Origin: Paracyclopina nana
Lineage: Eukaryota; Arthropoda; Copepoda; Cyclopoida; Cyclopettidae
DNA length: 64,000 bases
Assembly (NCBI GenBank): GCA_019096065.1
Contig: JAGUCH010000004.1
Span: 9,486,001-9,550,000 of the forward strand
Direction: 5' to 3'
The translations under genes and the position numbers were made by a program. Positions 7,801 to 59,256 of the stretch are shown piece by piece. Within the stretch, counting starts at the first letter, position 1, and every line of letters starts with the position of its first letter. Under the pieces are notes generated by a model. That model saw nothing but the letters and a program-made list of their open reading frames with translations. It had not been told where the DNA came from and searched no databases.

Positions 7801-9660
7801 CAATGCCAAGGCAGGTGTGGCTGATGACTTCCAGTCTGGCTCCCGGGCAGCCCTGGTTGGGGGTACAACCACTGTCGTTGAACTGGTGGTTCCGGACAAG
7901 GAGGAGTCCCTGCTCGAGGCGGTGGCCTCTGCGAAAGCCGAAGCTGAAGAGAATGCCTGTTGTGATGTGGCCTTCACGGTGGCCATTCCAAGGTGGAACG
8001 ATGAGGTCAAGGCTGACTTGACCGCTTTGGTAAAGAACGAAGGCATCAACTCCTTCAAAGTGTTCATGGCCTTCAAGGATGAGCTGATGCTCACCAATGA
8101 GCAGATCCTGGATGTGCTTGACCACTGCAAATCACTTGGTGCTGTGGTGCATGTCCATGCTGAGAATGGCACCATCATTGCAGAGAATGAAAAGCGCCTT
8201 CGTGCCAAGTAAGCGTACATGGATGACCTTATTCTAGCTAAAAATTGATAAAGCCTTCCAAAGGCTTGGCATGATATTGTCATTCTGGAGAGAAGCCCAA
8301 CTGAGCTTCCTGATTTGCTTTACTAGTGAATTGCAAAGATGAATGCTTCCCAGTTATTTGCAAACATTGCAGTAAGCAGGATATGAATAACATTCGAGCT
8401 TTGAGGGTGTTTGACTATTTGAGCCAAGTTAGCATACATGGATGACCTTATCCTTTTTTTATGGGATAAAGCCTGTCTGGAGCCTCAGATTTGCCTGGAG
8501 TTGACCCAACGTTTCCTCTCATTTGCAGGGGAATCAGAGGGCCTGAGGCTATATTGATGGCCAGACCTGAGGAAATTGAGGAGGAAGCAGTGAAGAGGAT
8601 TTGTACAATGGCCAGACATTCCAATGTCCCAATCATCATTGACCAGCCAACCAGCCAATCTGCCATTGAGGTCATCCGGGCGCAGAAGGAGAAGGGACAA
8701 GTGGTAATCGGTCAAGCATCGGCCTTGTCCATGGCCAAGAATGGATCTGAATACTACAATGAAAGCTGGACTAAGGCAGCTGCCTTGGTCACCGCTCCAC
8801 CCTTAAGGGACCAGCCGGACATTCAAAGTCAAATCATTGAGGCTGCCTTGAACGATGTTTATGCCACCGTTTCCTCCAACCACAAAGCGTTCAACGATGA
8901 GGCCAAACGTGAGGTGGGCAAGGCTGACTTTGCAGCCATTCCACATGGCCACAATGGTGTTGAGGAGCGAATGGCTGTCTTGTGGGAGAAGTTGGTACAA
9001 AGTGAAAAGGCCACTCCAAGCAAGTTTGTGGCTTTGGCAAGCTCAAACGCTGCCAAGATGCTGAATGTGTGGCCTCAAAAAGGCTGCATTGAGGCTGGCA
9101 GTGATGCGGATGTGGTCATCTGGAACCCCAACAACTTGAGGGTCATCAGCAGCAAAGATCCCACCGAGTCTCAGGGAGATGTCAACGCCTTCGAAGGGGT
9201 CTGCGTGCATGGAGCCCCCGAATATGTACTAGCCAATGGTAGGGTTGTGGTCTATGAGTATGAGATGAACCCCAATGTCACCAACGTTGGCGCCAAGATT
9301 CTAATGACTGAGGCATACCCTAGCATTTTGTATGACCAAGTCCAGGACCTGGATGACTTGGGCAAAGTAGTCGGTGTGGACAGGCAGACCAACATAGAAC
9401 AAGGCGATGAGGACTCTGTAAAGGAGACAAATGAGGACTTTGGACTCACCACACCAAGGAAGAACTCTGAGCCACCAGTATTAAACAAAAAATTAGGGAT
9501 TTACCAAAGGCCCATGAGTGCCCATGGGGTTCGCAACCAGCAAGACTCAACATTTTCCCTTGCTGGTGGGTATGGACCCAACCCAGGCGAATTTGGCAGC
9601 CCAAAGAGGACTGTGAAGATCAATGCACCACCAGGTGGCAGCAGTCGAGCTTTTTGGTAG
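1845..9660 (+). CDS. Collapsin response mediator protein (CRMP/DPYSL family), 724 aa
   Basis: Five coding exons with consistent phases: 1845-1938, 6211-6382, 7282-7311, 7462-8208 and 8529-9660 (stop TAG). CRMPs are cytosolic dihydropyrimidinase-like proteins that bind tubulin and regulate axon growth and cytoskeleton. The amidohydrolase fold begins near residue 140 and shows family blocks such as GGTTTVVELVVP, SFKVFMAFKDE, HAENG and NGVEERM. The basic C-terminal tail ends in the CRMP-typical APPGGSS. The metal-binding HxH of true dihydropyrimidinase (DPHTH) is replaced by D207-T-C-T-N, and the later metal His is also lost (IIIDQPTSQSA), so it should be catalytically dead. About 100 Ser-rich residues precede the fold, like the long vertebrate CRMP isoforms. 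The start is the first ATG after the acceptor at 1841-1843. An alternative upstream promoter is possible. It is convergent with the myosin gene. Confidence 0.9.
2020..2765. repeat. ~21-bp minisatellite in CRMP intron 1
   Basis: Degenerate tandem repeat of about 21 bp with core TGAAATAGACTTGAAAATGA. It opens a spurious minus-strand frame of 247 codons rich in Phe/His/Ser. No homology or splice logic supports coding. Confidence 0.9.
3190..4500. repeat. ~178-bp satellite, about 8 copies, in CRMP intron 1
   Basis: Units recur at about 3201, 3379, 3558 (5'-truncated), 3729, 3903, 4083, 4260 and 4440, with a degenerate copy near 4697. Each carries GCGCAATCAAGCAAAACGGC followed by CACTTCAAATC, then an AATGGCTTTTT block and a TTTTAGCACAATATTT block. 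Each unit has a short inverted GTGCGC...GCGCAC pair. Nothing in it looks coding. Confidence 0.93.
4873..5279 (+). mobile_element. Dispersed repeat element, copy 1 (MITE/SINE-like, ~410 bp)
   Basis: Very similar over its whole length to the reverse complement of 19930-20313. Shared blocks include CGCCATCTACCGACATTTTT, ACTTGGGAGTTGAGCTC, GTCGAGCCACTTTTTTT and AAATCCCAGCTGTTGCCCT. Both ends carry a short inverted CATAACA. The encoded frames (about 100-140 codons) are not shared cleanly between copies, so a non-autonomous element is more likely than a gene. Confidence 0.75.
5730..6185. repeat. ~100-bp degenerate repeats in CRMP intron 1
   Basis: AT-rich tandem repeats built on TTCTGCTGAGTCATATTTT, TTTGTTTACTTTCCAAATTT and TTTTTGCTTTGTTTTGAT, about four to five copies. 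They end just before the exon 2 acceptor at 6201-6210. No coding signal. Confidence 0.8.
6420..7260. repeat. ~18-21-bp minisatellite in CRMP intron 2
   Basis: Repeats of ACAACTTTTGTACATTAATG and variants, 30 or more degenerate units. They fill CRMP intron 2 between exons 2 and 3 and produce shadow frames on both strands. Confidence 0.92.
8209..8528 (+). repeat. CRMP intron 4 with an internal direct duplication
   Basis: The 320-bp intron contains two copies of CATACATGGATGACCTTAT-like sequence, at about 8213-8260 (starting at the donor) and 8430-8475. The second copy carries a short T-run. It suggests local duplication and has no coding frame. Confidence 0.6.
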
Positions 9661-11303: not shown

Positions 11304-14300
11304 TTACATCTAAAAAAAATTAAAAAATTCTTGCTAAACACATTGGTCTAATCATTTGACTTAAGAGCTTACATTGAAGGAGCCAGCACGGGTCTGGCGG
11401 GCAAGAGATAGCTGAGCTCCTGCCATCTTGGACCTTTCCTCAGCCTCCTCCAACTCTTGTTGGGCCTTGCGGTATTTAGCCAAGTTAAGGGCGGCAATCT
11501 CCTCAGCCTCCTCAATCTGCTTCTTGTAGGTCTTGATCTTCTGTTGGAGCTTGCTGGCCAACTCAGACATGCGGTCCTGGTTCTTATGGTCCTCATCCTG
11601 TTGGAATTGAAGCTCCTTGATGCGGCGCTCAGCCTTCTGGAAGGCCTTGTAGGTCTCAGATGTCTTGCTTTGAAGGCTGCCAAGCTCAATCTCAAGCTCG
11701 CGAATGCGAGACTCAAGTTTAGCCATAGCATTGCGGCCACCCTTGGCAGCAACCTCATTTGCCTCAGCCAACCTTTGCTCAAGCTCAGCAATTTGGGTCT
11801 CAAGAGCCCTCTTTGCTTTCTCCTGGGAGCTGGAGTGCTCTTGCTCAGCCCTGAGTTCATCAGCAAGGCGAGCAGCATCAACCATAGCCTTCTTGGCCTT
11901 CTCCTCAGAGTTCTTAGCCTATGAGCAAAGAATATGAATTTTATCATGGCAACAAAACATTGTTATACTACATACCTGGTGAAGCATATCATCAATCTCA
12001 GCATGCATGGTGTGGATGGCAGATTCAAGGCGGCGCTTGTCAGAGCCAGCCTTGGAGTTGATGGTAGTCATGTCATTGACGGCAGCACGAGCCTCAGACA
12101 ATTCCATATCTGCCTGCTTCTTGCCACGGTCAGCCGAGTCAAGAAGAGCACGAGCCTCCTCAAGTTCTCCCTGGAGAGCATTGGCACGGCGATCAGCTAA
12201 GCCAGCCTTCTCAGCAATCTCACGGCGTTGACGGCTCTCTTCTTCAAAGAGACCTTCAACATCACGAAGTTGAGCTTGGTACCTCTTGATGGACTTGTGA
12301 GCCTCAGAGTTAGCTTTGTTAGCATGGTCAAGAGCAATCTCTAGTTCATTGATGTCAGATTCAAGCTTCTTCTTGATGCGGAGAGCCTCAGCCTTGGCAC
12401 GAGACTCAGCCTCCAAGGAAGCCTGCATGGAGTCCATGGCACGTTGGTGGTTTTTGCTAAAGTAATCAATATTTTATGAAGATGAGGTCTCAAATTGACA
12501 TGAAAATGTAATACCGTGTGTTATCAAACTCCTCTTCCTTCTCTTGGATCTTTCTGTCAATTTCTTGACGAACTTGTCCAAGCTCAAGCTGTGCCCTAAG
12601 AACCTTGTTCTCCTCTTGTTCAAGAGCAGCTTCAGCCTCCTCAAGAGCAGCCTGGAGCTCCTCCTTCTCAACCTCAAGACGACGTCTCTGCTTGTCAAGC
12701 TCATGGATGGAGCGACCTCCATCTCCAAGCTGGTCAAGAAGATCCTTGATTTCATCAGCCAAGTTCTTGTTCTCACGTTTCACAACATCAAGTTGCTCAG
12801 TGGTCTCATCCCAAGCAGCCTTGAGGCGGAAAAGCTCGCTGTTGTAGTTGCGGCACTCCTTTTGGCTTGCCTCAATCTCAGCAGCAAGATCATCAACCTT
12901 GGCTTTCCATTCTCCAACAACCTGTTGATACAAAAATCTTATAAGCTGCTGCTCTAAACGGTGACTATTCTGCAATTACCTTGTCAAAGTTTCTGCCACG
13001 CTTTTCAGTAATGATAGCAGCAGCATGCACTCTCTCATACTCAAGCTGGAGATCCTCAAGCTCAGTTTCAAGTCGGTGCTTGGTTTTTTCAGTGCTGGCA
13101 ACCTTCTGGTTCAATGACTCAATGGTCTCCTCAGCTTCTGAGAGGCGGGCTGACAACTTTTGTTTGCTGCTGTCAAGCTCATCAATCCTGCCTAGACCCT
13201 CAGTCTCAAACTTAGACCTCCAGAGTTGGATTTCAGCCTGAGCCTTGGAAAGACCCTTGAGTCCATCAGACTTCTTCTCAGACTCCTCCTCAATGCGCTC
13301 CCTCAAGTTTTCAAGCTGGTTATTATGAGAGAAACATAAGATAATAACTATTCTAATATTGAGTGTTTAAGGTCTTACTTCGCTATTCAGGTTCTTGAAC
13401 CTAGCCAAGAGAGAAGCACGGTCACGGGCCTCAGCATCTCCAAGACGCTTGGTGTCCTCAAGCTGGGTGGTGAGAGAGATCTTTGCCTTGCCAAGAGCAG
13501 CAATGGCATTCTCAGTCTCATCAATCTGGCGGAGAAGGTCTTGGTTCTCAACCTGTAACTTCTTCCTTGAAGAGTCAGCCTCATTCAAAGCACGAGCCAT
13601 CTCATCAAGTTTTTGGTTAGCCTCAACAATGAGCCCTTGAGTGAGTTTGCCATTTCTCTCATGATTGGCACGATCCCTCATGGCTTCATCAAGGGCGGCT
13701 CTAGCCTCTTGGAGGTCACGCTCCATGTTGGCCTTGTCCTTCTCAGCCTTAGCCTTCATCTTGTTCAAGGAATCAATTTGCTCTCCCATTTCAGACATGT
13801 TATTGTTATGCTTTTGCCTCAAAGCAGCAAGAGTGCCTTCATGAGCAATGTTGGATTCTTCCAACTCAGCCTTCAACTTGGCAAGCTCAGCCTCCCTCTT
13901 CTTGTTGAGCTCAATCTGGGTGGCAGTGTTGTTGCCGGCATCTTCAAGCTTCTCAGCAAGATCTTCAATATCCCTGGAGAGGGCAGCACGGTTCTTCTCT
14001 GCCTTTGCACGGGCTTGTCTCTCAATTGAGAGCTCTTCATCAAGCTCCTCAAGCCTTGTCTGCAACTCTTTGATTTGCTTGCTGTACTTGCTGGCCAATG
14101 TCTGCTCATCCTCAATCTTGGCAGACATGGAAGCAATCTCCTTCTCTTTGCGTTGGATGGTTTGGTTGAGCTCACTCTTGACTCTCTCAAGGTCTGAGAC
14201 AGCCTCTTGAGTCAACTTGAGGTCTCCCTCAACTTTCCTCTTCAACTTCTCTACATCACCCTTGGCTTTCTTCTCTCTCTCAAGAGAGTCCTCACATTCA

Positions 14301-17300
14301 TCAAGAGCTTGTTCAAGTTTGCCCTTCACCTTGTTGAGGTGGTTGCATTTATCTTCCATGGCTTGGATGTCCTCTTCAGTCTTCTGGCGAGACTCTCCAA
14401 CTCCTCTCTTCTCCTTTTGGAGCTTGGCAATCAGCTCTTCTTGGTGAGCAATCTCCTCCTTCAGAGTCCTGATTTGGTTGTCCTTTGTCATCTTGTCCTC
14501 CTCACAAGCCTCCATTGTGGATTCAAGAGCCTTGATCTCACCACGAAGACGGTCAGCATCTTGCTTCACCTTTTGGCCTTGAGCATCCAAGTTGGCAATT
14601 GCTTCCTCCTCACCGCGGATGCGGTTGTTAGTCTCGTCCAATTGCTTCTGGATATCATTCTTCATAGCCTCAATACGATTGGTCTTGTCAATGATGTCTT
14701 GAACTGCAGATCCACCACTCTGGAGAGCAAGGACCAATTCATTCTTTTCATTGCTCAACCTCTCATACACTGCCTTGACCTTGTTGCATTCAGCAATGGC
14801 CTTGTCAATGTTGGCTTCAGCAATAGCAATCTTTTCCTCATACTCAGCCTTGTATTGAGCAAATTTGGTGCACTTGAGGTTGGGCTTGATGGCCAACCAC
14901 AATTGCCACCAGAGCCAGGTCTTACCAATGTAGTAGTTACGAATGGTTCTCTGGAGGCAGTACAAGGCCAACTTTTGGTCTTGCATTTTCCTGAAGACCA
15001 AGCGAGAGGCCTTGCCTCTAGCTTGAGCCTGAAGCCAAGACAGAACAGTACCAATACGGTCCTCACGAACTTCCTCCATGTAACCCAAAATACCAGCACG
15101 GAAGAATACCTTGGTGTGGCCCAGACGGTACTTCTCAGCCTCCAATTTGATGGTATCAAAGACAGCCTTAGCTGCATCCTTGTCCTTCTTTGCCCTGGCA
15201 ACAGCAGCAGCAGCCAATATATTGTAACGAGACTTGAACTCAGGGTAGACAATCTTGTTGGGGAAGCCCTTCCTGCAGATAGCAATACCTGCCAGCACAC
15301 CATTACATTGGTACTGATGCATGACAAGACCAGGCTCCACTCCTCCAGGGATTTTGTGGGTGTTGGGCACCACACAACGGATGAAGGATGGATCAGTGGA
15401 ATACAGGGTCTTCATGAGATCATCAAGTTGACCCTTGTAGAAAGAGGAGACAGTTTTGCCACCTCCCTTCTTCTTGCCGCCACCACCTCCATCTTTCTTG
15501 ACCTCAAGAGGTTGACCAGGATGGTCATAGAAGCATTGAACTAGAAGGGCATTGCTACCATTCTTCATGAGCTCAACAACAGTGTCATTGAGGGGATCCT
15601 TGTTCTTCTCAAGCCATCCGGTCAAATTGTAGGATACAGTTGCTGCATAATGGATGACAGCAAAGTGAGCATTAGGATCAGGCCTTGGGTTAGCCTTTTG
15701 GAAGTTCTCGCATTTGCCCAACAAGTTTTCATGGAGCTTGGCAGCAAAGGACTGATCAGTAGCCTTGGGGAAGAGAGACTCTTCCTCAAGAATGGCCAAG
15801 AGACCCATGGGCTTCTCAAACATGGTGATGCATTTTTGCAAATCCATACCAAAGTCAACATTGGCCCATTCAATACCTTCCTTCACATACTCCTCCTGTT
15901 CCAGCACAAACATGTGCTGGTTGAAGAATTGCTGCAGCTTTTCATTACAGAAGTTGATACAGATTTGCTCAAAGCCATTGTAGTCAAAGATCTCAAAGCC
16001 AGCAATATCCAGGCAACCAATGTATTGAACTTTCTTCATGGTAGGGTCAACCAGGGTTTCATTACATTTTTCAACAATGAAACGGAAGGTACGCTCATAG
16101 ATGGAGCGGCCAATACCTGAGACAGAGCTAGCAGCTCCACTGCAAGTTTGACCCTTGGATACCCATTCAGTACCGACCTTTAGCTTAGGTTTGCAGAAGT
16201 AAGTAATCATCCATTCCCTGTCAATTCCACAAATGTCAGCAATCTTGATGGCATTGGTCTCCTCCTTGACCTCAGCTTGCTCCTCCTTGCCCACTGGAAC
16301 AAAGTCCTTGGTCAAGTTACCCATGTGCATGACAACAGCTGTGAGCTTGTAGCAATTGTACTTCTCGTCATTGCTGAAGCCCAAGATGTCAAAAGCCTCA
16401 TCAGCAAACATCATGTCCTCTTTGTCATCAATGGAATCCACAGTGACCTTTCCTTGGGACACCCACCAATAGTCATAGATGTTGTCAGAAAGGAATGCCT
16501 TTGCCTTCAAGTCAGGGACTTGGTCAGACATGATGTTGTAGAAGGCATGGTAGCAACGCTCAAGAGTAGCCTGGAAGGTCAACCTAGACTTCTCAAGCAA
16601 GTAAGTCACCATGTCAGCACCAGACAGCTTGCCACCAGCATTGAACCAAATACGGATGAATTTACCAAACCTGGAGGAGTTGTCATTCCTCACAGTCTTA
16701 GCATTGCCCCAGGCCTCAAGCACAGGGTTAGTTTGCACAATCTTGTCCTCAAGACCAGGCTCTCCTTCCTTCCTCTTGCCAGAGGCACCAATGCTGGCAA
16801 AGTATGAGATGACCTTCTTGGTGTTCTCAGTCTTTCCAGCTCCAGACTCTCCAGTAATGAGGATAGACTGGTTCTTGCCAGCATTCATCATACCTTGGTA
16901 GGAGCCCTCAGCAACACCAAAGATGTGGGGAGGGCACTCGCTTCTCCTCATACCAATGTAGATTTCCATGGTACGTTGGGTGTAGATGGGGAAACGCTTG
17001 TAAGGGTTGATGGCAATACAGAAAAGACCAGAGTAGGTGTAGATGAGCTCATTCTTGTACCTAACCACTGAGTTCCACAAAACACAAGCATCATTCAGAT
17101 ATGTCAAGCCAGCCATATCGTCAGAGCAGTCAAACTTGGGAGGGTTGACTTGGCCAACTTGATCCTTCTTGAAAACTTTGGACTGAAAAAAGTAAAAAGT
17201 AAAAGAAATTGCTTTGCTTGATTTTGAGATGGAAATATCGCACCTCTCCAGTTTCCAAGAGCTTGACAGTGACCTTGTCACCCTCGGTGGACTCAATAAG

Positions 17301-17459
17301 ACCCTCAAAGTAGCCATGAGTGGCCTTGTCAGGAACCCAGCAGGACTTCTTGGGATCATAGGGCTTAGACTTCAGCTTGATCTTGAGCTCATCAGACACG
17401 ATCAGCCATGGAGATGGATCTGGATCAGGTCCATCGGACTTCTTGATATGGCCGGGCAT
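11304..17459 (-). CDS. Muscle myosin heavy chain (class II), 1,931 aa
   Basis: Seven coding exons on the minus strand: 17459-17244, 17182-13379, 13315-12980, 12921-12515, 12456-11976, 11918-11373 and 11309-11304. All junctions are GT-AG and in phase. Myosin II hydrolyses ATP to slide actin in thick filaments. The N-terminal SH3-like domain comes first, then the P-loop GESGAGKT (183-190), switch [11 protein letters not shown] (238-247) and switch [11 protein letters not shown] Gly/Lys-rich actin loop 2 ([12 protein letters not shown]), a converter/IQ region and a coiled-coil rod of about 1,090 residues follow, ending RAGSFNM. The length is normal for the family. The motor and most of the rod lie in one 3.8-kb exon with no alternative exon sets, unlike Drosophila Mhc. 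The SH1/SH2 helix reads [15 protein letters not shown] where CNGVLEGIRICRKGF is typical. The last coding exon is only ATG TAA; if its intron is retained the tail would be VSS. Confidence 0.96.
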
Positions 17460-35905: not shown

Positions 35906-38900
35906 ATGGAGAGCCCTATGGAGTTGAAAGCCTGGCCTGTTTTTGCCAACATTGAAGTGGACTTTTTGGCCAAAGTGAAATCAGTGTGGGTTTACAGAGA
36001 ATATAAATGTGAAGGGGCCATGATTCTCACAAATGAGGATGAAGTCTTTGCGATTGGGAGCAATAAATATGGCCGACATGGAGTTGGCGATACCCAACCA
36101 GCCACAAATCCAAGAAAAGTCCCCGCTCTGAGCCACAAACAAGTGGTCGAGATCAGTTTTGGATCTGGATTTGCATTGGCCCTGACACAAGATGGAACCA
36201 TCTATTCATGGGGTGAAAATGACAAAGGACAACTAGGTCGTGAAACCACAAATGATGGATTGACTCCAATGCCAATTGAAGGTCCACTGAGAGGCAAAAT
36301 GGTAAACTCTGTTTCTTGTGGTTTTGATCATAGGTAAAAAGTCCTTTAAATGTGTTCATTTGCAATTGGTTGCAATGATGTTTATTTTTGCAGCTTGGCT
36401 CTCACAGACTCGGGTGAAGTCTTTGCTTGGGGAAATAATGAGCATGGCCAACTTGGGGATGGATCCCGAATAAATGCCAAAGTCCCAAAAAAGATCAAGT
36501 TTCAACACTTGGTGCCTGAAGAGTGTCATGCTGTACAGATTTCTTGTGGAGCAGATTTCTCTATCATTCTCCTGAATGATGGCAGAATTCTATCATTTGG
36601 ATATTCACGTCTTGGCCAGCTTGGTCATGGAAACAATGAGAATCAATCCACTCCTGCAATCATCAAAGCACTGAGACAAACCAAAATTGTCTCAGTGTCT
36701 TGTGGCTGGTGTCATGTGCTGGCCTTGTCAGATATGGGACATCTTTATAGTTGGGGATGGAATTGTTATGGACAATTGGGCAATGGAAGTAGAAAACAGT
36801 CCTCAGTGCCAACAAGGATTGGTGACAAAAGTACAAGATTCACTGCAATTGAGACAAATTGGGCTTCATGTATGTCAGCTGCTCTAAATGAATCCAGTCA
36901 AACCTATGTTTGGGGCAGGTGCAAAGGAGATATCTTCACACCAACTGAAACTCAGTACAAGAGTCTGCCAGAGGCTTTCTACTTCCATTCACATGAAGGA
37001 TGTTCAATGTTTCTCAGGGCAATCAGGTTCACTTCTAGTGGCACAAGTGATAGCCAACCAAGGTAAATGTCTTTTTTCAGGCTTCAGTTGTTTTTTTTCT
37101 ATGGACTTGGAACATTCACTCAATATTGTTGACAATGTCCCATTTCAGTCAATGTAATTTGGGCTCTGGGTTCAATTGTTTTTGGGGTGCTCAGTTGGCT
37201 CTCAGCAGCATGGATTTCACAGTTTTTCTGTCCTTGTTAAGAATTTGCATTTTCCTTGAAGTAAAGGCAGTGGCCACATATCCAGCGTACAGAAATACCC
37301 GAAATTGGCTCGCCCGAAACTAAGCAGGGCAACATTAAAACACAGAAATCCCAAAAGCTAGTTTGAAAACACAAGCCAAGACTATCCAACACACAGAATT
37401 GCAATAATAGCCAATGGAAACTAGCATATAAAATTTTGGCAACTTTTTTGAGCTAGGAGCAAAAATCTCGTAATGTGAACAATAGGTCCTAGTGCAATAT
37501 GTCAGCAAATTGACTTAAAAGGGCTGATTTAATGGGGAAAAAAAGGCTTCTAGTCTTATATAAAAAATGGCGTGTTTGGCTAGCAAATCTCATGATAAGC
37601 TGATCGAGGTTCTCTTGCTAAAAAAGGCTAGCTATTTTATGCATTGGGTGGCCACTGCCTATTCATGGTGCTGGTCCAAGACCCTGTCAGTGCTACCCAA
37701 AATGCCGTGGAGGCAACTGAGTGCAAGTATGACAGCAATAATGGGAAACCATGGGTTTGGTATATCAGACTAAACGCGAATTCACAGAAACGCGAATCAA
37801 TTCTAAGCGAATCACATTAATGAGAGCTTCCTGTTCACCTAGTCAGTTATTGGTAATATTATGGCCAGAAATTACTAAAAAAAATTACGGCCAATTCACG
37901 GATTTTGTTTTGCTATTTTTCCACTTTTGTTTAGCCACAATCAGCCTTGTCAGGCAATTTATGAGAAGGCCGTTTAATTTTTAACCTTTTTTAGCTGCCT
38001 AAGTTGCTGTGAGTTGAAAGCCTGGCCTGTTTTTGCCAACATCGAACCGGACTTTCTGGCCAAAGTGAAATCAGTGTGGGTTTACAGAGAATATTTAGGT
38101 GAAGGGGCCATGATTCTCACAATTGAGGATGAAGTCTTTGGGATTGGGAGCAATAAATATGGCCAACATGGAGTTGGCGATACCCAACCAGCCACAAATC
38201 CAAGAAAAGTCCCCGCTCTGAGCAATCAACAAGTGGTGGAGATAAGTTTAGGAGATGAATTTGCATTGGCCCTGACACAAGATGGAACCATCTATTCATG
38301 GGGTTGTGATAATAGATTTGGACAATTAGGTCGTAAAACCACAAATGACGGATTGATTCCAATGCCAATTGAAGGTCCACTCAGAGGCAAAAGGGTAACC
38401 TCTATTGCTTGTGGTGGTTTGCATAGGTAAATAGTCCTTAAAATGTGTTGATTTGCATTTTGTTAGCAATGCACAGTGGTTAAAAAGTGGCGAAATTGAC
38501 GTAGCACCTTTTTCTTAAAGCCATAAGCTAAAAACAGGCTATCATAGCTCCTCATTCCGCGAATTTCCACGCCCAATTTCAATAGATTATCCTAAAATGG
38601 TGTCTTGGTTACTTTTTTGTCACAATATCTTGATTACATTCGGTTCCAAACAAAAGTTGTAGCTGCCTGAAAGTAGCCAAAAATGGCTCTTCTACTACCC
38701 AACCAGAAATTCTGGGCCCTTATACGGCAAAAAAACCCTCAGTGGAACTTATACGTTTTATCAAGTTCAAGTCGTTATGTAACATTAACTGCCTTGACAC
38801 CTAGGTAAAATCGAAAATACGTATTTTCCGTGTCACATTCGACGGTACAATAACTTTCAGAAAACTTGGGAAAATTTCTGGTTGGGTATTTTTCCAAAAA

Positions 38901-41358
38901 CGGACTTTATCCAAGAAAAGTTGATTTTAAAGGCAAACTTTCATCTTAATTTGTGAATATCTACTAATTTTGACACTTTTGAGACCGTAGAAGTCATTCT
39001 ATTAAGAAGCTGAAAATTGGTCTTGAAATGAGAATTTGGCGATAAGACAGAATTTCTCGTGAGCGCGAAAATGGCTTTTTTGTTCATAGTGCAATGATAT
39101 TTATTTTTGCAGCTTGGCTCTCACAGACTCGGGTGAAGTCTTTGCTTGGGGAAGAAATGACAGAGGCCAACTTGGGGATGGATCCCAAAATGATTCCATG
39201 GTCCCCAAAAAGATCCAGTTTGAACACTTGGTGCCTGAAGGGTGTCATGCTCAACAGATATCTTGTGGAGCACTTTTCTCAATCATTCTCCTGAATGATG
39301 GCAGAATTCTATCATTTGGAAATTCAAATTATGGCCAGCTTGGTCATGGAAACAAAATGTATCAGTCCACTCCTGCAATCATCAAAGCACTGAGACAAAC
39401 CAAACTTGTCTCAGTGTCTTGTGGCAATTATCATGTGCTGGCCTTGTCAGATATGGGACACCTTTATAGTTGGGGAAGGAATGAATGTGGACAATTGGGC
39501 AATGGAAGTACAGAAAATTCCTCCGTGCCAACAAGGATTGGTGACAAAAGTACAAGATTCACTGCAATTGAGACAAATTGGGCTTCATCAATGTCAGCTG
39601 CTCTAAATGAATCCAGTCAAACCTATGTTTGGGGTCGGTGCAAAGTTCAGTTGGGGTTCAGTCCACTAACTGAAACTCAGTACAAGAGTCTTCCAGAGGC
39701 TGTCTACTTCCATTCTCATGAAAATCTGCCAATCTGTCTCAGGGAAATCAGGTTCACTTCTAGTGGCACAAGTGAAAGCCAACCAAGGTAAATGTTGTTT
39801 TTTCATGCTTCAGTTGTTTTTTTTCTATGGACTTTGAACATTCACTCAATATTGTTGACAATGTCCCATTTCAGTCAATGTAATTTGGGCTCTGGGTTCA
39901 ATTGTTTTTGGGGCACTCAGTTGGCTCTCAGCAGCATGGATTTCACAGTTTTTCTGTCCTTGTTAAGAATTTTGTGTTTTCCTTGAAGTAAAGGCAGTGG
40001 CCACATATCCAGCATACAGAAATACGCGAAATTGGCTCGCCCGAAACTAAGCAGGGCAACATTAAAACACAGAAATCCCAAAAGCTAGTTTGAAAACACA
40101 AGCCAAGACTATCCAACACACAGAATTGCAATAATAGCCAATGGAAACTAGCATATAATATTTTGGCAACTTTTTTGAGCTAGGAGCAAAAATCTCGTAA
40201 TGTGAACAATAGGTCCTAGTGCAATATGTCAGCAAATTGACTTAAAAGGGCTGATTTAAGGCAAATTTCGGTGGGAAAAAAAGGCTTCTAGTCTTATAAA
40301 AAAAATGGCTCCTTTGAAACCTGTGACCAATTTATTTTCAGGTCTGGGTCTCGATTTTTACAAGAATATGAGCCCCTCTCATGGCTTGGCTCTGGAGCTT
40401 CTGGGGCAGTCATGAAAGTGAGGTGCATTCATGAAGTGGACAAGGCCCTGATGGCCGTCAAAATGATCGAGTTTGACGAGAAATCCAGAAAGGAAATTGG
40501 CTTCCTCAAGCGATTGACCCATGAAAATGTGGTGGGGTACTACTCTGGATGGGTGGAGGAAATCTCAGACAGTGAGCGCATAACTCTTAAGTCTACGTGT
40601 ATTCAGTTTTCAAATTCATCTGTCTTCTAGGCTGGGTGGAACAATTGAAAAAGGCCATGGCAAAAGCTGAAGCCAACGATCCTGAGGCCAAGAATGGAAA
40701 GGGTTGGAGGGACATTCAACTGCCAAAAGGGTACTCCTTCTTGTTTATTGCCACTGAGCTGTGCTCTCGTGGAACCCTGCATGACTACATTTTCATGAGC
40801 CCTGACAAACCAATCAAGGAATCGTGGAAAAAATTTCTACAAATTGTTTCCGCCATATCTTACATCCACATGAAAAAAATAATCCATCGGTAACTCAATC
40901 AACTTGGACCTGATATCTAATACACATAACAAATGCTCGCAATTATTTTCAGAGACCTTAAGCCAGCCAACATATTTGTTGGGGCGGATGGCAATATCAA
41001 AATCGGAGATTTTGGCTTGGCAAGATCACTGGAAAAGAGCTCAATGGCTAAGACACGGGTTGGGACACAGTATTTCATGGCCCCTGAAATATCCCTAAAA
41101 GGTTACAATCATAAGGTGGACATATTTGCGGCTGGAAAAATCCTGGCTTTCTTAATATACCCTTTGAAATCATACAAAGACACTGCAGCAAGGCAGTATT
41201 TTGAGGGTATACGCAGTGGAACAAGCATCCAAAATGGACTTGATGAGCTCATCAGTAAGATGATCAATGAGAAACCTGAAATGAGGCCTGATGCAAGTGA
41301 GTTGGTTGGGCTTCAGTGCCCCATAGACACAAATTGCCTTGCTAATCCGACTCTGTAA
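35906..41358 (+). CDS. RCC1-RCC1-protein kinase fusion (RCBTB-like propellers plus eIF2alpha-kinase-like domain), ~1,032 aa
   Basis: Exons 35906-36333, 36394-37062, 37995-38426, 39113-39787, 40342-40571, 40631-40889 and 40953-41358 join in phase. Residues 1-365 and about 367-734 are two near-copies of an RCC1 propeller (repeated SWGxNxxGQLG, SCGxxHxLAL). They resemble RCBTB1/2, including the VWGRCKG block, but no BTB domain follows. The kinase (about 745-1032) has P-loop GSGASG, Lys in MAVKM, HRDLKPANIF, GDFGLA and MAPE, so it looks active. The eIF2alpha-kinase family is suggested by YYSGWVE, an insert of about 40 residues before FIATELCSRGTL, and HKVDIF. Propeller 2 lacks its own ATG but has an acceptor whose phase fits propeller 1. 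Two separate genes remain possible. The order RCC1-then-kinase is opposite to NEK8/NEK9. Confidence 0.75.
37063..37994 (+). repeat. Intron holding the breakpoint of the internal gene duplication
   Basis: From the donor at 37063 to about 37565 the sequence is nearly identical to 39788-40310, which precedes the kinase exon. After the shared TTATA...AAAATGGC the copies diverge, and no kinase exon follows here. An acceptor TTTTTTAG lies at 37987-37994, and the second propeller starts directly after it. Confidence 0.8.
38472..39091. mobile_element. CACAGTGG-family MITE (620 bp) inside an RCC1 intron
   Basis: Starts CACAGTGGTTAAAAAGTGG and ends in TTTTTTGTTCATAGTG. Flanked by a CAATG duplication (38467-38471 and 39092-39096). 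The paralogous intron at 36334-36393 has the same flanks with a single CAATG and no insert, so this is a clean empty site. Confidence 0.92.
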
Positions 41359-41385: not shown

Positions 41386-41391
41386 AATAAA
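41386..41391 (+). promoter_or_regulatory. Poly(A) signal of the RCC1-kinase gene
   Basis: AATAAA 28 bases after the stop codon at 41356-41358, followed by an A-rich stretch. It supports the stop as the true gene end. Confidence 0.65.
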
Positions 41392-41930
41392 CTTAAAAAA
41401 TGTACCATCACTTATGTAAGTTTTCTTATCTAAATCATGCTTTGGGAATATGGAGCTTGCTCACAAAGAGGAAAAGATAGCAAAAACTAGATCTTGTACT
41501 CGAAAAGTTTTGCATATTGTGCAAATAGTGGCTTGAAATCAGTGCAAAGGTAAAAAAACAAGTCTCTCTTTTTTATTGAGAAAAGTAAACTATTATCTCA
41601 ATTAATCAAACAAGATCAGTCTGTCGACGTCAATGATGACAAGGTCAAAAGATACACCATGAAAAAATACAAAACTCATGCAAAGATTTATGGAACTACG
41701 CCAATTGCATTAAATTATTCCGCATAAATAAATAGATACGATGGAAAAGAACAACAAAACATCAAATCAAGTATATTTAGATGAGCGTGGCACAATGAGT
41801 TCAATTACTTTTTGTGGCTTTTACATAAATTGGCTTTTCTTATTTGAGATAAGCAGCAGACATTGAGATGGAATTTTCCCATGTCAAAACATTGAATTAC
41901 AACATGAAGAAAAGAAATTCGAAACTTTCA
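41392..41930. repeat. 3' flank segment, one of three diverged copies
   Basis: No gene. The segment starting near 41590 (CAAACAAGATCAGTCTGT, GATGAGCGTGGCACA) recurs near 45490-45700 and, shortened, near 46680-46800. Confidence 0.6.
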
Positions 41931-41939
41931 AATATAATT

Positions 41940-42050
41940 TTATATTTGGTTTTATTCAGCCACCTGAATCCGGAACTGGTTGAGCTGGAGTGTCGTTGTT
42001 GTGACTTGGAGAATCCAACAAATCTTGCTAATCTTACCCTTTCAAAATAA
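41940..42050 (+). pseudogene. Kinase C-terminal fragment (duplicate 1)
   Basis: After a TTTTATTCAG acceptor-like site the frame reads LNPELVELE, then DLENPTNLANLTLSK and a stop. It resembles the kinase end ELVGLQCP...CLANPTL. Diverged copies lie at 45845-45942 and 46895-46960. It could be an alternative last exon, but degraded duplicates are more likely. Confidence 0.5.
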
Positions 42051-42267
42051 GTTAATATGATTTTCCGTAGCATTTTAAAAGGTTCCATGGAAATGAGGAG
42101 ATACATTCGAAATTTCCCTTTAACTTGCAGTAAATCATTGATGCTCCAGATTTTATTTGTTCTGACCAAACAAGGTTAAATTGGCATCAATGTTTGTTTT
42201 CTTTGGCATCTCATTGCTGTGGTTTTAACATCGAACAACTCTTATCTTGAAAAGGGCAACTACATCT

Positions 42268-43802: not shown

Positions 43803-44986
43803 ATGCAAAGTCCAAGTGAGAGCCAATCAAGGTAAATATCTTGTTTTAGGCTTCAGTTTTTTCCAAGGGCAACAACTCCTTTCAATCAAGTTTGTAGGCA
43901 ATTTCCCAAAAAAGCAATTAAGGGTTTAACTGGAAGGGAAAATCTTATTGAAAGGCTAAAGACTATGTATGGCCCTTCGCTCTATTTTCAGGTCTTCGTC
44001 GTACTTCTTCCAAGCATATGAGCCCCTCTCATGGCTTGGCTCTGGAGGTTTTGGGGCAGTCATGAAAGTAAGGTGCATTCAAGAAGTGGACAAGGCCCTG
44101 ATGGCCGTCAAAATGACCCAGTTTGACCAGGAAGACAGCATGGCATCCAGCAGGGAAATCGGCTTCCTCAAGCGATTGACCCATGAAAATGTGGTGAGGT
44201 ACTACTCTGGATGGGTGGAGGAAACCCCAGACCGTGAGCATAATTCTCTTTATCTATGTTTATTCAGTTTTGAAATTCGTCTGTTTTCTAGGCTGGGAGG
44301 AACAATTGAAAAAGGCCATGGCAGCGAAAGTCAACGATCCAGAGGCCAAGAATGGAAAGGGTTGGAGGGACATTCAACTGCCAAAAGGGTACTCCTTCTT
44401 GTTCATTGCCACTGAGCTGTGCTCTGGTGGAACCCTGGAAGACTACATCTTCACTGAGAAAACATTAGATCGGTCATGGAAACATTTTCAACAAATTGTT
44501 TCCGCCATATCTTACATCCACAGCAAAGACATAATCCATCGGTAAGTCTATCAACTTGGACCTGATATCAAAAATACATTATACATGCTCGCAATTGTTT
44601 TCAGGGACCTTAAGCCATCCAATGTATTCATTGGACAGGATAGCCAGACCAAAATCGGAGATTTTGGTCTGGCAAGATCGCTTGCAAATAGCTCTAAGGC
44701 TTGTTCATTTGCTGGCACTATAGAGTTCACGGCCCCTGAGCAATTGGAGGGCCAACGATACGATTATAAGGTAGACATATTTGCGGCAGGTTCAATTCTG
44801 GCATTCCTCATGCGGAGCTTTAAGTCCTACACGGAATCGTTTAGCTATTTCAAGGCCATAGGCAGTGGAGCAACCAACAAAGATGAGCTTGATGAGCTCA
44901 TCATTAAAATGCTCAATGAGAACCCCGAGGAGAGGCCAGAAGCGAAAGAACTGGTTGGGCTTCAGTGTCCCATCAAGTTGACTTAA
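43803..44986 (+). CDS. Kinase-only paralogue (eIF2alpha-kinase-like), 300 aa
   Basis: Exons 43803-43831, 43992-44233, 44292-44541 and 44605-44986 (TAA) are in phase. The first exon encodes MQSPSESQS and ends CAAG|GTAAAT, exactly like the last RCC1 exon of the larger gene (ESQPR). The propeller has therefore been lost and an ATG now opens the remnant. Kinase motifs: GSGGFG, MAVKM, YYSGWVE, insert, FIATELCSGGTL, HRDLKPSNVF, GDFGLA, TAPEQ and YKVDIFAAG. All catalytic residues are present. The tail ends LVGLQCPIKLT. It probably acts as a free kinase in cytosol or nucleus; the substrate is unknown, with eIF2alpha suggested only by family resemblance. It lies 2.4 kb downstream of the fusion gene in the same orientation. 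Confidence 0.8.
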
Positions 44987-45345: not shown

Positions 45346-45484
45346 CACTTAATTGTGCAATCAGAGCAAAGTTGGGAAAAGGCAAAAAAAGTTAGCAAAG
45401 TTGGGAAAAGGCAAAAAAAGTTCCAGCGATCATATCGCAACAGGTGCTTAAGTGGACCTGATAAGAATCCTCGCTCAAGGTATT

Positions 45485-45844
45485 AGCTCAATTAATCAAA
45501 CAAGATCAGTCTGTTTATGTCAATGATGACGAGGTCAAAAGATACACTATGAAAAAATGCAAAACTCTTGCAAAGTTTAGCGGAAATACACCAATTGCAT
45601 TAAATAATTCTGCATAAATAAATAGATACGGTGGAATAAGGACAACAAAACGTCAAGTCAAGTATATTTAGATGAGCGTGGCACAGTGAGTTCAATCATG
45701 CTTTGTGGCTTTTGCATCAATCGGCTTTTCTTGTTTGAGATAAGCAGCAAACAATGAGATGGAATTTTCCCATGTCGAATCATTGAATTACAACATGCGG
45801 GAAAAGAAATTCGAAACTTTCAAATACAGCTTTGTAATTGGTTT
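45485..45844. repeat. Second copy of the kinase 3' flank
   Basis: Parallels 41590-41935 (CAAACAAGATCAGTCTGT, TAAATAGATACGGTGGAAT, GATGAGCGTGGCACAGTGAG). No gene. Confidence 0.7.
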
Positions 45845-45942
45845 TATTCAGCAGCCTGAATCCGGAACTGGTTGAGCTGGAGTGTCATTGTTGTGACTTG
45901 GAGAATCCGACAATTCTAGCTAATCTTACCCTTTCAAAATAA
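45845..45942 (+). pseudogene. Kinase C-terminal fragment (duplicate 2)
   Basis: Encodes LNPELVELE, then DLENPTILANLTLSK and a stop; very close to 41940-42050. Confidence 0.5.
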
Positions 45943-46398
45943 GTGGCTTTGATTTTCCCTAGCATTTTAAAAAATGGCATTAAAATGAGGAGATACATTT
46001 GAAATTTCCCTTTAACTTGCATTAAATCATGGTTGCTCCAGATGCTATTTGTTCTGACCAAACAAGGTTAAATTGACGTCATGCAATGTTTGTTTTCTTT
46101 TGCATCACAAAAATCAAATTGATTTTACATACGTCAAACGACTCTTATCATGTTTTTGAAAGGGCACCTATACATGTAACATTGATCAGGAATTTTCCAG
46201 TCTCGAGGCTCATTTGCTTACACCATAAATCATTTCATTCAGCCAAAAACCAATATTAAAATAGAAGGATTCAAAGAGATGCTCAAATCTTCTTTTTGTT
46301 GAATAGGTTGCGTGAATGAGAGTGGCAATGTTCCGCACTCCGGTTCATACTTTTTTGCTGGCAAAGATTTGATTTGAAAAAAAAATGCTTCAAAGGTT

Positions 46399-46503
46399 GA
46401 TGAGCTTGATGAGCTCATAATTAAAATGCTCAATGAGAACCCCGAGGAGAGGCCAGAAGCGAAAGAACTGGTTGGGCTTCATTGTCCCATCAAGTTGACT
46501 TAA
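46399..46503 (+). pseudogene. Truncated kinase C-terminus with stop
   Basis: Encodes DELDELIIKMLNENPEERPE, then AKELVGLHCPIKLT and TAA, almost identical to the end of the kinase-only gene (44882-44986). Upstream sequence is unrelated to kinase, so this is a 5'-truncated duplicate. Confidence 0.85.
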
Positions 46504-57100: not shown

Positions 57101-59256
57101 TTCTGTGGGACTTATGGGACATTATTGAGTGCTTTTGGGACGTTTGCTTTGGCGCCCTTTTGGCCTATTGGGACAATTTTTGAGCGCACAATGGGAATTT
57201 TGGGACATTTTTTGGATGCATTGTGGGACTTTTGGGACAATCTTTTAGTGATCTGTGGGACTTATGAGACATTTTGAGTGCTTTTGGGACTTTGCTGTGG
57301 CGCCCTTTTGGCCTATTGGGACAATTTTTGTGTGCTCTGTGGGACTTTTTTTGGGACATTTTTGAGCAAACTATGGGAATTTTGGGATATTTTTTGGTTG
57401 CATTGTGGGAATTTTGGGACAATGTTTTTAGTGTTCTGTGAGACTTAAGGGACATTTCGGGGCATTTTTCTGGTTCTTTGTGGGACTTATGGGACATTTT
57501 TTGGGTGCCATGTGGGACTTCACACATATTTTTTGGGTGAAATGTTGATGTTTCGTCGGGACATTTTTTATCTGGGACTTAAAGGACAATTTTTGGATGC
57601 AATGTATGGACTTTTAGGACATTTTTTGCTGCACTTTGAAAGTTTTGTGACATTTTATGGGTATGTTGTGGGACTTTTGGGACAATTTTTTGGGGGTGCT
57701 TCCTGGGACATATATGACAATTTTTGAGTGAACTTTGGGACAATTTGGGAGGTTTTTTGTTTGTTGGAAAAAAAGTTGAAAAAATACATTTTAGAATGTG
57801 GGACTACAAATCTTGACAAATCACAGTTTTAAAAAGGTCAATCAAAATTAAGGAGGCTAAAAATGCTTGGAAGACTTTCATTTTCAAATTGCCATTGTTT
57901 ATCAATAAAAATCCTTTGAAAGGGTTAAAGAAAACAAAAGTTTTGAATAGTTTTAATATCTTTCGTCCATTTCAGGTGAGTCCGGATCCGGATCTGCATG
58001 TGTACGACTTGAACATCCTCAAAGATCGATGCTTGATCCTTGGCACTGATGGCGTTTGGAATGTTGTCAGTCCTGACATGGCTGTGCAAAGTGTGTTCGA
58101 GGCAGAACGCAACAACGAACAACACATGATTGATCCCCAGGGAAGCGGTCACACCTGGGTGAATCCATCGAAGAAGCTTGTCGATTATGCCATCGATCGG
58201 TGGAACGTCTGTAGTCTTCGGGCGGACAACACTTCTGTCGTCACCGTCATGCTTGATCCTCCAGGACCTCCTCGCGCTCAAGTCCTGCGGAAGCTTCATC
58301 AGCAGAAGGAACAACAAAAAGAACAACAACCTGTCGTCATCCCAAATGATGATGATCATGTCCAACTTGAGACAGAAGACGATGAGAAGAAGAAGAAGTC
58401 GTCCGCAATTGACAAGGGCATCGCCATCATCTCGCGTTATCCCAACTCGTCAGATTCGGGGCAGAAGAACGGTCTGAACTTGATTGGGACGTCAAGCGTC
58501 ATCAAGAGCAAAGCGGAATCCAGGATTGTCCACGACTCAACCAAACCTGCACCGCTTCGTGTTGCGAAGCCTGACGCATCTTCATCCAATCCTGTACAAT
58601 GCAATGAGATCTCTTCTTCGGACGACGAGACGACCAAAGAAGTCAAAGACGCCGAAGACGTCAACACTTCTGGTCCATCTTCACGGACGCGACGACAATC
58701 CGGGCAAGTTCTCGGCAATAAACGTTCCATGTCTTTGCTGAAGGATGTCAATTCTTCAGGTCCATCATCAAGAACACGCAAGCAATCCGGACAATCCGGA
58801 CGTAACCCGAATGTTGACGTAAACGTTAATGTCAAGCGAACAAAGACTTCGCTGATGCATGCCAATGAGGACAGCGATGCTGAGAACAACTTGCCTAACC
58901 ATTCGCTTAGGCAAACACGACAGCGAACTAAAAGCGGCATGGACTTACAGGCGGTGAATGCTGCATCGATTGGATCTACGCCAACTTCAAAGAAGAGGGC
59001 GAAGACTCCGGAAGACGAAATCTCCCCGAGGATCTTGCGGCCAAGGAACAACACTCCAAAGGTTGAAGAGACGTCGTCAAGTCATTCGAGGAAACGCCAA
59101 AGATCTTCGTACGACGACAAGACGTCCTCCGTCCCAACGAAGAATGGACTTTCGACCAAAATCCAAAAGACGTTCAAGTCTTCAGCGTCAAACACCAATT
59201 CTGCGAATACTCCAGCTTCAGCCAGACTGAAATGCCTTCGAAGCCGAATGAACTAG
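54191..59256 (+). CDS. PP2C-family Ser/Thr phosphatase, PPM1D (WIP1)-like, 659 aa
   Basis: Four exons: 54191-54373, 55076-55269, 56667-56988 and 57976-59256 (TAG), in phase. PPM1D dephosphorylates DNA-damage-response kinases and substrates in the nucleus. Metal-binding acidic residues are visible in RKYMED (D25), FDGHGGREAAQF (D49), GTDGVWN (D258) and RADNTSVV (D317). PPM1D-specific blocks include GLPSTAGTTAS, HVGDSGIMLG, LTQDHKPE, RVVWYRPSGGHQGPVRRST and PFLAVARALGDLWSYN. A basic insert (LSPSRWRAKR) corresponds to the B-loop region. Residues from about 330 to 659 are Ser-rich and basic, with two GPSSRTR(R/K)QSGQ repeats and KR clusters, probably nuclear-localising. Exon 3 is far GC-richer than the others. 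AATAAA occurs about 230 bases after the stop (near 59487). Confidence 0.93.
54420..55070. repeat. ~175-bp tandem repeats in PPM1D-like intron 1
   Basis: Three to four units with AGCTGGTGAATTGTTATTCA, TGTCAAAGCTGTTTTCT and GGGCTGAATTGCAATTGGGA. Confidence 0.88.
55370..56640. repeat. GAGCAC-rich minisatellites in PPM1D-like intron 2
   Basis: 55380-55990: ~38-bp units of TATAGTTGCGCACTCTTTTT and AAGCTGAGCACTC. 56060-56640: ~21-bp units of CCTGAGCACTTGATTTTCAA. Shadow frames (such as KPEHLIFKHEHLIF) come from the 21-bp unit. Confidence 0.92.
57020..57740. repeat. GTGGGACTTTTGGGACATTT minisatellite in PPM1D-like intron 3
   Basis: About 18-35-bp units of TTTTGGGACATTTTTTGG and TGTGGGACTTATGGGACA. 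A longer 180-bp periodicity is visible (GCGCCCTTTTGGCCTATTGG at about 57150 and 57300). Confidence 0.9.

Follow-up and report, generated by a model that had tools for sequence, protein, structure and literature searches.

A candidate family of RCC1 propeller proteins with an eIF2alpha-kinase-like domain in the copepod Paracyclopina nana

The eIF2alpha kinases halt translation in response to stress or viral infection. They differ in their sensor domains, which comprise double-stranded RNA (dsRNA)-binding, Z-DNA-binding, heme, luminal and HisRS-like parts. RCC1 propellers, which have seven blades, are known from other combinations: in NEK8 and NEK9 a NEK kinase is followed by RCC1, while RCBTB-type proteins combine RCC1 with BTB, a ubiquitin-ligase adaptor. 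In plant CRINKLY4/ACR4, an RCC1-related propeller of seven repeats precedes the kinase and is thought to bind a ligand, as set out in a passage of PMC4617170. Here, we describe a locus of Paracyclopina nana in which RCC1 exons are predicted to be joined to the exons of an eIF2alpha-kinase-like domain. It lies in a stretch of 64,000 nucleotides (nt), hereafter the window, which corresponds to C4:9486001-9550000 in a 92-Mb genome of ten contigs (C1, C2 and so on); positions given without a contig are those of the window. The candidate gene, A-K1, spans 35906-41358 and consists of RCC1 block A and kinase K1. Its two most complete relatives on contig C4 are the loci L001 and L002.

The kinase of this family resembles PKR/PKZ, GCN2, PERK and HRI, with PKR and GCN2 nearest, and it carries an insert between beta4 and beta5. 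Unlike in the described eIF2alpha kinases, the putative sensor is an RCC1 propeller, the insert of K1 is not markedly acidic, and the residues of a dimer salt bridge are found in K1 only. Pfam detected neither a BTB domain nor the dsRNA-binding domains of PKR proper in the A-K1 model, L001 or L002. With RCBTB1/RCBTB2-type proteins the family shares the RCC1 block, its division between exon 1 and exon 2, and the linker, and it groups with RCBTB genes of contig C7, but a kinase takes the place of the BTB domain. Like NEK8 and NEK9, the predicted protein unites an RCC1 propeller and a Ser/Thr kinase in a single chain; here, however, RCC1 comes first, and the kinase scores higher with PKR or GCN2 than with the best NEK. 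UVR8 was the best propeller match by sequence among solved structures, and part of the variable sites described below align with its GWRHT motif, but UVR8 has no kinase and the Trp and Arg of this motif are not conserved in the C4 array. The lineage-specific duplicates of the family recall those described for fish PKR and PKZ in part of PMC2291453.

A fusion of RCC1 with an eIF2alpha-type kinase was not evident in searches of open-licence papers in PubMed Central, and other species may possess relatives. In CRINKLY4/ACR4, the propeller is extracellular, only distantly related to RCC1, and accompanied by a TNFR-like region and a receptor-like kinase (same passage of PMC4617170), so that the two architectures probably represent separate fusions. 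An undescribed kinase class, as proposed in the first-pass annotation of this DNA, is plausible for the combination with an eIF2alpha-type kinase, while RCC1 before a kinase has a precedent in CRINKLY4.

Architecture of the RCC1-kinase genes

Spliced alignment predicted a gene of five exons with GT-AG introns and one open frame of 663 amino acids, which terminates in TAA at 41356-41358 (exons in Table 1). All introns of the model are phase 2, except for a phase 1 intron at 40571/40631. At E values up to 0.01, the Pfam models assigned to the predicted protein were all of two types, RCC1 (WD40_RLD, E 5e-71; RCC1, E 8e-67; further models) and kinase (Pkinase, E 5e-42; further models), and beside RCC1 and kinase Pfam found no extra domain in A-K1, L001 or L002. 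The K1 motifs GSGASGAV, AVKM, HRDLKPAN, DFGL and APE are all present.

The same architecture was found in L001 (C4:9.4007-9.4029 Mb, 651 amino acids) and L002 (C4:9.4750-9.4772 Mb, 667 amino acids), each of which holds a complete five-exon RCC1-kinase frame. All four introns of both loci measure 58-60 nt. The gap between RCC1 and kinase is 59 nt in L001 and 58 nt in L002, with GT-AG ends and matching phase, and Pfam returned the order RCC1 then Pkinase in both. Since L001 and L002 are complete fused frames with an intron-sized gap, a chance adjacency of the two parts is very unlikely, and we ruled out a chance neighbourhood on the basis of these two loci. Judged from the sequences, the RCC1-kinase gene architecture is almost certainly real. 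The first-pass annotation had claimed that RCC1 exons are joined in phase to a kinase complete with HRD, DFG and APE. Both claims were confirmed at the level of the predicted frame, but the annotation had overlooked a second RCC1 block (block B) and a second kinase (K2) at the same locus.

Five kinase units were detected on C4. In four of them, a same-strand RCC1 block precedes the kinase; the remaining unit, K2, is preceded by an RCC1 relic. All five catalytic motifs are kept in four units; the exception, L007, consists of RCC1, a 1686-nt intron and a kinase with a broken third exon, and lacks DFG and APE. The sequences support a local expansion of the RCC1-kinase family. Its array occupies C4:9.40-9.65 Mb, approximately 41-287 kb from the end of the contig, with a fragment (L008) 0.7 Mb away. 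A further RCC1 fragment is located at C4:9554933-9555355. TTAGG telomere arrays are present in the genome and, together with a muscle myosin of the window whose five best structure matches are arthropod entries, agree with an arthropod; the final 7.6 kb of contig C4 contain no such array.

Several observations speak against a uniform set of working fusions. No kinase accompanies 8 of the 13 RCC1 units. L005 and L006a contain stops, L004a a frameshift, and L003b is disrupted; L008 is a partial RCC1 unit and, as mentioned, the kinase of L007 is broken. In addition, broken kinase pieces on C5 (L027), which are 50-67% identical to K1 in their best stretches, have no RCC1 match. We rejected the idea that this type of kinase is always coupled to RCC1, given that L027, L025, L026, L028-L030, L043 and L048 lack an RCC1 match. 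L027 comprises several pieces at C5:7443-7450 kb, and the telomeric end of this contig is about 200 kb away.

The RCC1 units without a kinase would also be expected if RCC1 blocks and kinases were separate adjacent genes, with the RCC1 frame ending at the TAA of the donor and the kinase using its own ATG. Indeed, if unspliced, blocks A and B read ...QPR followed by a stop (AAG GTAA read as AGG TAA), and an in-frame Met is located upstream of kinase exon 1 in four of the five C4 kinase units. However, K1 is the unit with no such Met, and the Mets of the other units differ in position. Furthermore, the gaps in L001 and L002 have the size, ends and phase of introns, and it is implausible that 58-59 nt would harbor a promoter for the kinase. 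We consider two separate genes highly improbable, and we interpret the units as single genes in which splicing would join RCC1 to the kinase.

If the fusion family is real, the copy in the window could still be decaying, with L001 and L002 as the working genes. In line with this, block B has lost its start, K2 has lost its RCC1 part except for a relic, the joining of A to K1 requires a 3.3-kb intron, and the array contains other broken units. Moreover, the ratio of nonsynonymous to synonymous rates (omega) of the K1/K2 kinase pair is 0.54, which indicates weaker constraint than in the conserved L001/L002 kinases (omega 0.29 at a synonymous divergence, dS, of 0.235) and counts against the receptor-kinase reading given below. 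On the other hand, A-K1 has retained its full frame and its catalytic motifs, an AATAAA follows 28 nt past the stop, and the frames of K1 and K2 are both intact. Decay of the window copy is somewhat unlikely in our judgment, though it deserves serious consideration.

Kinase class and relatives of the two halves

In comparisons with solved structures, the K1 kinase reached 132.6 bits with GCN2 (the sum over the two kinase-like stretches of GCN2), 130.4 with PKR, 107.5 with PERK, 103.4 with NEK7 and 87.6 with NEK2. The corresponding values for the L001 kinase were 146.4 with PKR, 139.8 with GCN2, 111.2 with NEK1, 110.9 with PERK and 98.2 with HRI. For both kinases, PKR and GCN2 ranked first and exceeded the best NEK by 27-35 bits. 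This ranking of K1 and L001 led us to reject a NEK origin, and it supports the eIF2alpha-kinase-like domain of the first-pass annotation, with PKR/GCN2 closer than NEK.

A kinase tree was calculated with the family, 18 other kinases of the genome and human PKR; from the 23 own-genome kinases that were aligned, L027, L030, L031, L032 and L045 were omitted. The kinases of the family formed one clade (support 98.7/98). The family grouped with L025, L043, L026 and PKR (59.6/67; 92.9/82 when L028 and L029 were added). According to our reading of the sequences, not to a search, L025 is GCN2 and L043 is PERK-like. In the phylogenetic check that had been suggested for the kinase, a place among the eIF2alpha kinases had modest support at the lower of these values, in a tree that included no identified NEK. 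Since L025, L043 and L026 exist separately and have no RCC1 match, the RCC1-kinase family is additional to them.

All five C4 kinases contain a beta4-beta5 insert of 38-43 amino acids at the site of the eIF2alpha-kinase insert. The latter, between subdomains IV and V, is described as highly acidic in a section of PMC2291453. The inserts of the C4 kinases are not highly acidic, with acidic and basic residues numbering 8 and 7 in K1, 8 and 8 in K2, 7 and 6 in L001, 8 and 5 in L002, and 10 and 8 in L007. Two further points weigh against a simple assignment to this class. In the structure-library scores of K1 and L001, PERK and the best NEK were roughly on a par, and HRI scored lower than that NEK. 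Additionally, the Arg262/Asp266 dimer contact of PKR is matched (R..E) in K1 only and not in K2, L001, L002 or L007, and the salt bridge was dropped as a family hallmark for this reason.

A second eIF2alpha-kinase-like group (L028, L029 and L030) was found at C2:174-190 kb and 367-377 kb. The telomeric end of C2 is some 175-377 kb away from these clusters. At the C-terminus, their kinases continue into a conserved extension, which resembles the beginning of a further kinase domain; the one extension that was tested had no Pfam match.

Within the genome, the RCC1 half has its nearest relatives among the RCBTB-type genes, which combine RCC1 and BTB. We read 15 such loci, L009-L016 and L018-L024, on C1, C2, C4, C6, C7 and C8, and Pfam confirmed BTB in the one locus checked as a control (L010). 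The partial RCBTB-type locus L017 was omitted from the RCC1 tree and from the likelihood test of the C7 genes mentioned below. In the tree, the family's RCC1 blocks were split from all RCBTB blocks (100/100) and grouped with four RCBTB genes of C7 (89.6/83). Furthermore, the kinase family keeps the RCBTB linker to just before the BTB domain, and the exon 1/exon 2 split is common to both. The grouping and the common linker corroborate the earlier description of the RCC1 half as RCBTB-like. In the simplest history, kinase exons would have been acquired by a duplicated RCBTB gene whose BTB-coding end was lost. The RCBTB-type genes are themselves locally expanded, and the C7 group has a contig end with telomere repeats at a distance of approximately 65-171 kb.

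A variable propeller face as putative sensor

The RCC1 copies have a similar framework and differ at the two residues after CG in CGxxH (f1) and at the x positions of WGxNxxGQLG (f2). The f1 motif aligns with the G-W-R-H-T motif of UVR8, whose W233, W285 and W337 belong to the dimer-interaction surface according to a passage of PMC9546227. We located the putative binding face of the propeller solely by the sequence alignment to UVR8 and this published surface. It was defined as 20 codons in four blades (CGxx of f1, 8 codons; WGxNxx of f2, 12 codons), and the other 342 codons were treated as the rest. For the analyses with 11 copies, L008, which consists of exon 1, and the disrupted L003b were removed from the 13 RCC1 units and the fragment at C4:9554933-9555355 was not used. 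The nine-copy set additionally excluded L005 and L006a, which contain stops, and L004a was cut at codon 315, at its frameshift.

Over 11 copies, the ratio of nonsynonymous to synonymous differences (pN/pS) was 2.46 at f1, 1.64 at f2 and 0.66 in the rest, and the observed pN minus pS was not reached by a single one of 20,000 random site sets. The pN values of the face (0.57 and 0.53) were roughly triple the pS of the remaining codons (0.17). At the face, pN exceeded pS in 52 of 55 pairs, but elsewhere in 0 of 55. A tree-free analysis with five independent pairs per draw yielded a median pN/pS of 1.95 and a median Fisher p of 6e-4. In a two-rate codon likelihood test of the nine copies, twice the log-likelihood difference (2dlnL) was 28.1 and omega outside the face was 0.77; the five kinase-linked copies gave values of 14.2 and 0.71. 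The face omega of the nine copies is boundary-like, with a synonymous rate near zero, and only its likelihood ratio is usable. The face signatures of the 11 copies are all different. Within one gene pair, L001/L002, omega was 0.70 for RCC1 (dS 0.276) versus the much lower value for the kinase given above. As read from these sequences, diversifying selection acts on the propeller face.

This conclusion has to be weighed against four points. The face codons were chosen by the repeat motif and not by variability, but only after the variable alignment had been seen. When the five kinase-linked copies were considered alone, pN/pS at f1 was just 1.22 (f2, 2.20; rest, 0.64). The copies appear to exchange sequence (the downstream intron of blocks A and B is 97.8% identical, their exons 91.4% and 89.5%), which may distort tree-based codon tests. 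Finally, the four C7 RCBTB genes also showed pN above pS at the face in 5 of 6 pairs, so that a variable face is not confined to the fusion genes; their likelihood test was not significant (2dlnL 2.88, four genes). A restriction of the variable face to the kinase-linked copies was thus tested and not supported.

The sequence pieces that the copies have in common and the similar trend in RCBTB relatives would fit a propeller that is an ordinary targeting module, with a face that varies through relaxed constraint or gene exchange and not through ligand diversification. Moreover, RCC1 repeats vary at their x positions in many families. However, relaxed constraint predicts that pN equals pS, and this disagrees with the excess of pN in nearly all pairs at the face and in none elsewhere, and with a face pN about threefold the synonymous level of the rest. 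We regard this explanation as unlikely.

We propose instead that the family consists of lineage-specific, tandemly duplicated and diversifying intracellular receptor kinases of RCBTB origin, which would bind by their face and stop translation. As a whole, this reading could equally well prove right or wrong. The BTB-coding end of an RCBTB-type gene would have been replaced by exons for an eIF2alpha-kinase-type domain, and the product would comprise, in this order, the RCC1 propeller, a short linker and the PKR/GCN2-like kinase. The variable face may have as its ligand a pathogen effector or a protein that is foreign or modified by stress. Ligand binding would bring kinase domains together or lift an inhibition, resulting in autophosphorylation; ligand-driven dimerization is suggested here by analogy to the mechanism of PKR, GCN2 and PERK. 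The activated kinases would then phosphorylate eIF2alpha or a related substrate and translation would stop. Duplication and exchange between copies would generate new faces, while the kinase is kept much alike. The first-pass annotation had considered the propeller a sensor or targeting module. The sensor role gained support from the diversifying selection on the face, and we see it as about evenly balanced with its negation.

Since the eIF2alpha kinases differ in their sensor domain, an RCC1 propeller sensor would, if true, be a new one, and a diversifying face would make the sensed ligand a directly testable question. It would also mean that a gene family swapped its output, from BTB to kinase, and retained a variable recognition surface. 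For each of the 12 genera tabulated in a review on arthropod vectors, GCN2 and PERK are entered as found and PKR as not found (PMC7917218). A PKR-like kinase with a fast-diversifying sensor, if confirmed, would perhaps be a candidate for the role of PKR in arthropods. The diversification, together with the reported absence of PKR from these vector genera, suggests an immune role; a role in stress or with a self-ligand is an alternative. More tentatively, this arthropod might possess a germline-encoded, diversifying repertoire of intracellular receptors, each with an RCC1 recognition face of its own and with either a PKR-like kinase or BTB attached. Tandem duplication and exchange would create the new faces, and the repertoire would be the arthropod equivalent of PKR/PKZ and of families of polymorphic receptors. 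We hold this broader idea to be possible but doubtful.

Block B, kinase K2 and other features of the window

Block B is a duplicate of block A according to the identities given above, and it sits inside the long intron between A and K1, 554 nt from the K1 kinase. An in-frame ATG was not found at the usual place of its exon 1. The window sequence allows an A-K1, a B-K1 or an A-B-K1 gene. Upstream of K2, RCC1 is nearly deleted, leaving a relic of 50 nt. Table 1 also lists genes that lie elsewhere in the window.

Table 1. Positions of the RCC1 and kinase exons and of other features in the window
Feature	Position	Strand	Remarks
RCC1 block A, exon 1	35906-36333	+	Start codon at 35906, donor GTAAAA; splice model, open frame, Pfam RCC1
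RCC1 block A, exon 2	36394-37062	+	Donor AAG/GTAAATG, a stop (AGG TAA) when unspliced
RCC1 block B, exon 1	38015-38426	+	Acceptor-like TTTTTTAG about 20 nt upstream, phase-compatible with the block A donor
RCC1 block B, exon 2	39113-39787	+	Sequence comparison with block A
Kinase K1, exon 1	40342-40571	+	G-loop, catalytic Lys; splice model, motifs
Kinase K1, exon 2	40631-40889	+	beta4-beta5 insert, first part of HRD
Kinase K1, exon 3	40953-41358	+	Remainder of HRD, DFG, APE, stop TAA
AATAAA, polyadenylation-signal-like hexamer	41386-41391	+	Downstream of the K1 stop
Relic of RCC1 exon 2 (3' end and donor), before K2	43813-43862	+	blastn, 82% over 51 columns to block B
Kinase K2	43992-44986 (exons 43992-44233, 44292-44541, 44605-44986)	+	Intact frame
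Amidohydrolase-family exon	8470-9660	+	Pfam; dihydropyrimidinase-like by reading of the sequence
Muscle myosin heavy chain gene	13367-17371 and 11361-13366	-	Head matches muscle myosins best
PP2C phosphatase exon	57817-59256	+	Pfam

The 3' flank of K1 (41591-42213) is repeated after K2 at 45481-46109, with 88% identity over 629 columns, and further pieces are repeated as well. These repeated flanks suggest that K1 and K2 are parts of longer tandem duplicates. A further relic downstream of K2, at 46390-46494, encodes a fragment of 35 amino acids that corresponds to the end of a family kinase (66% identity).

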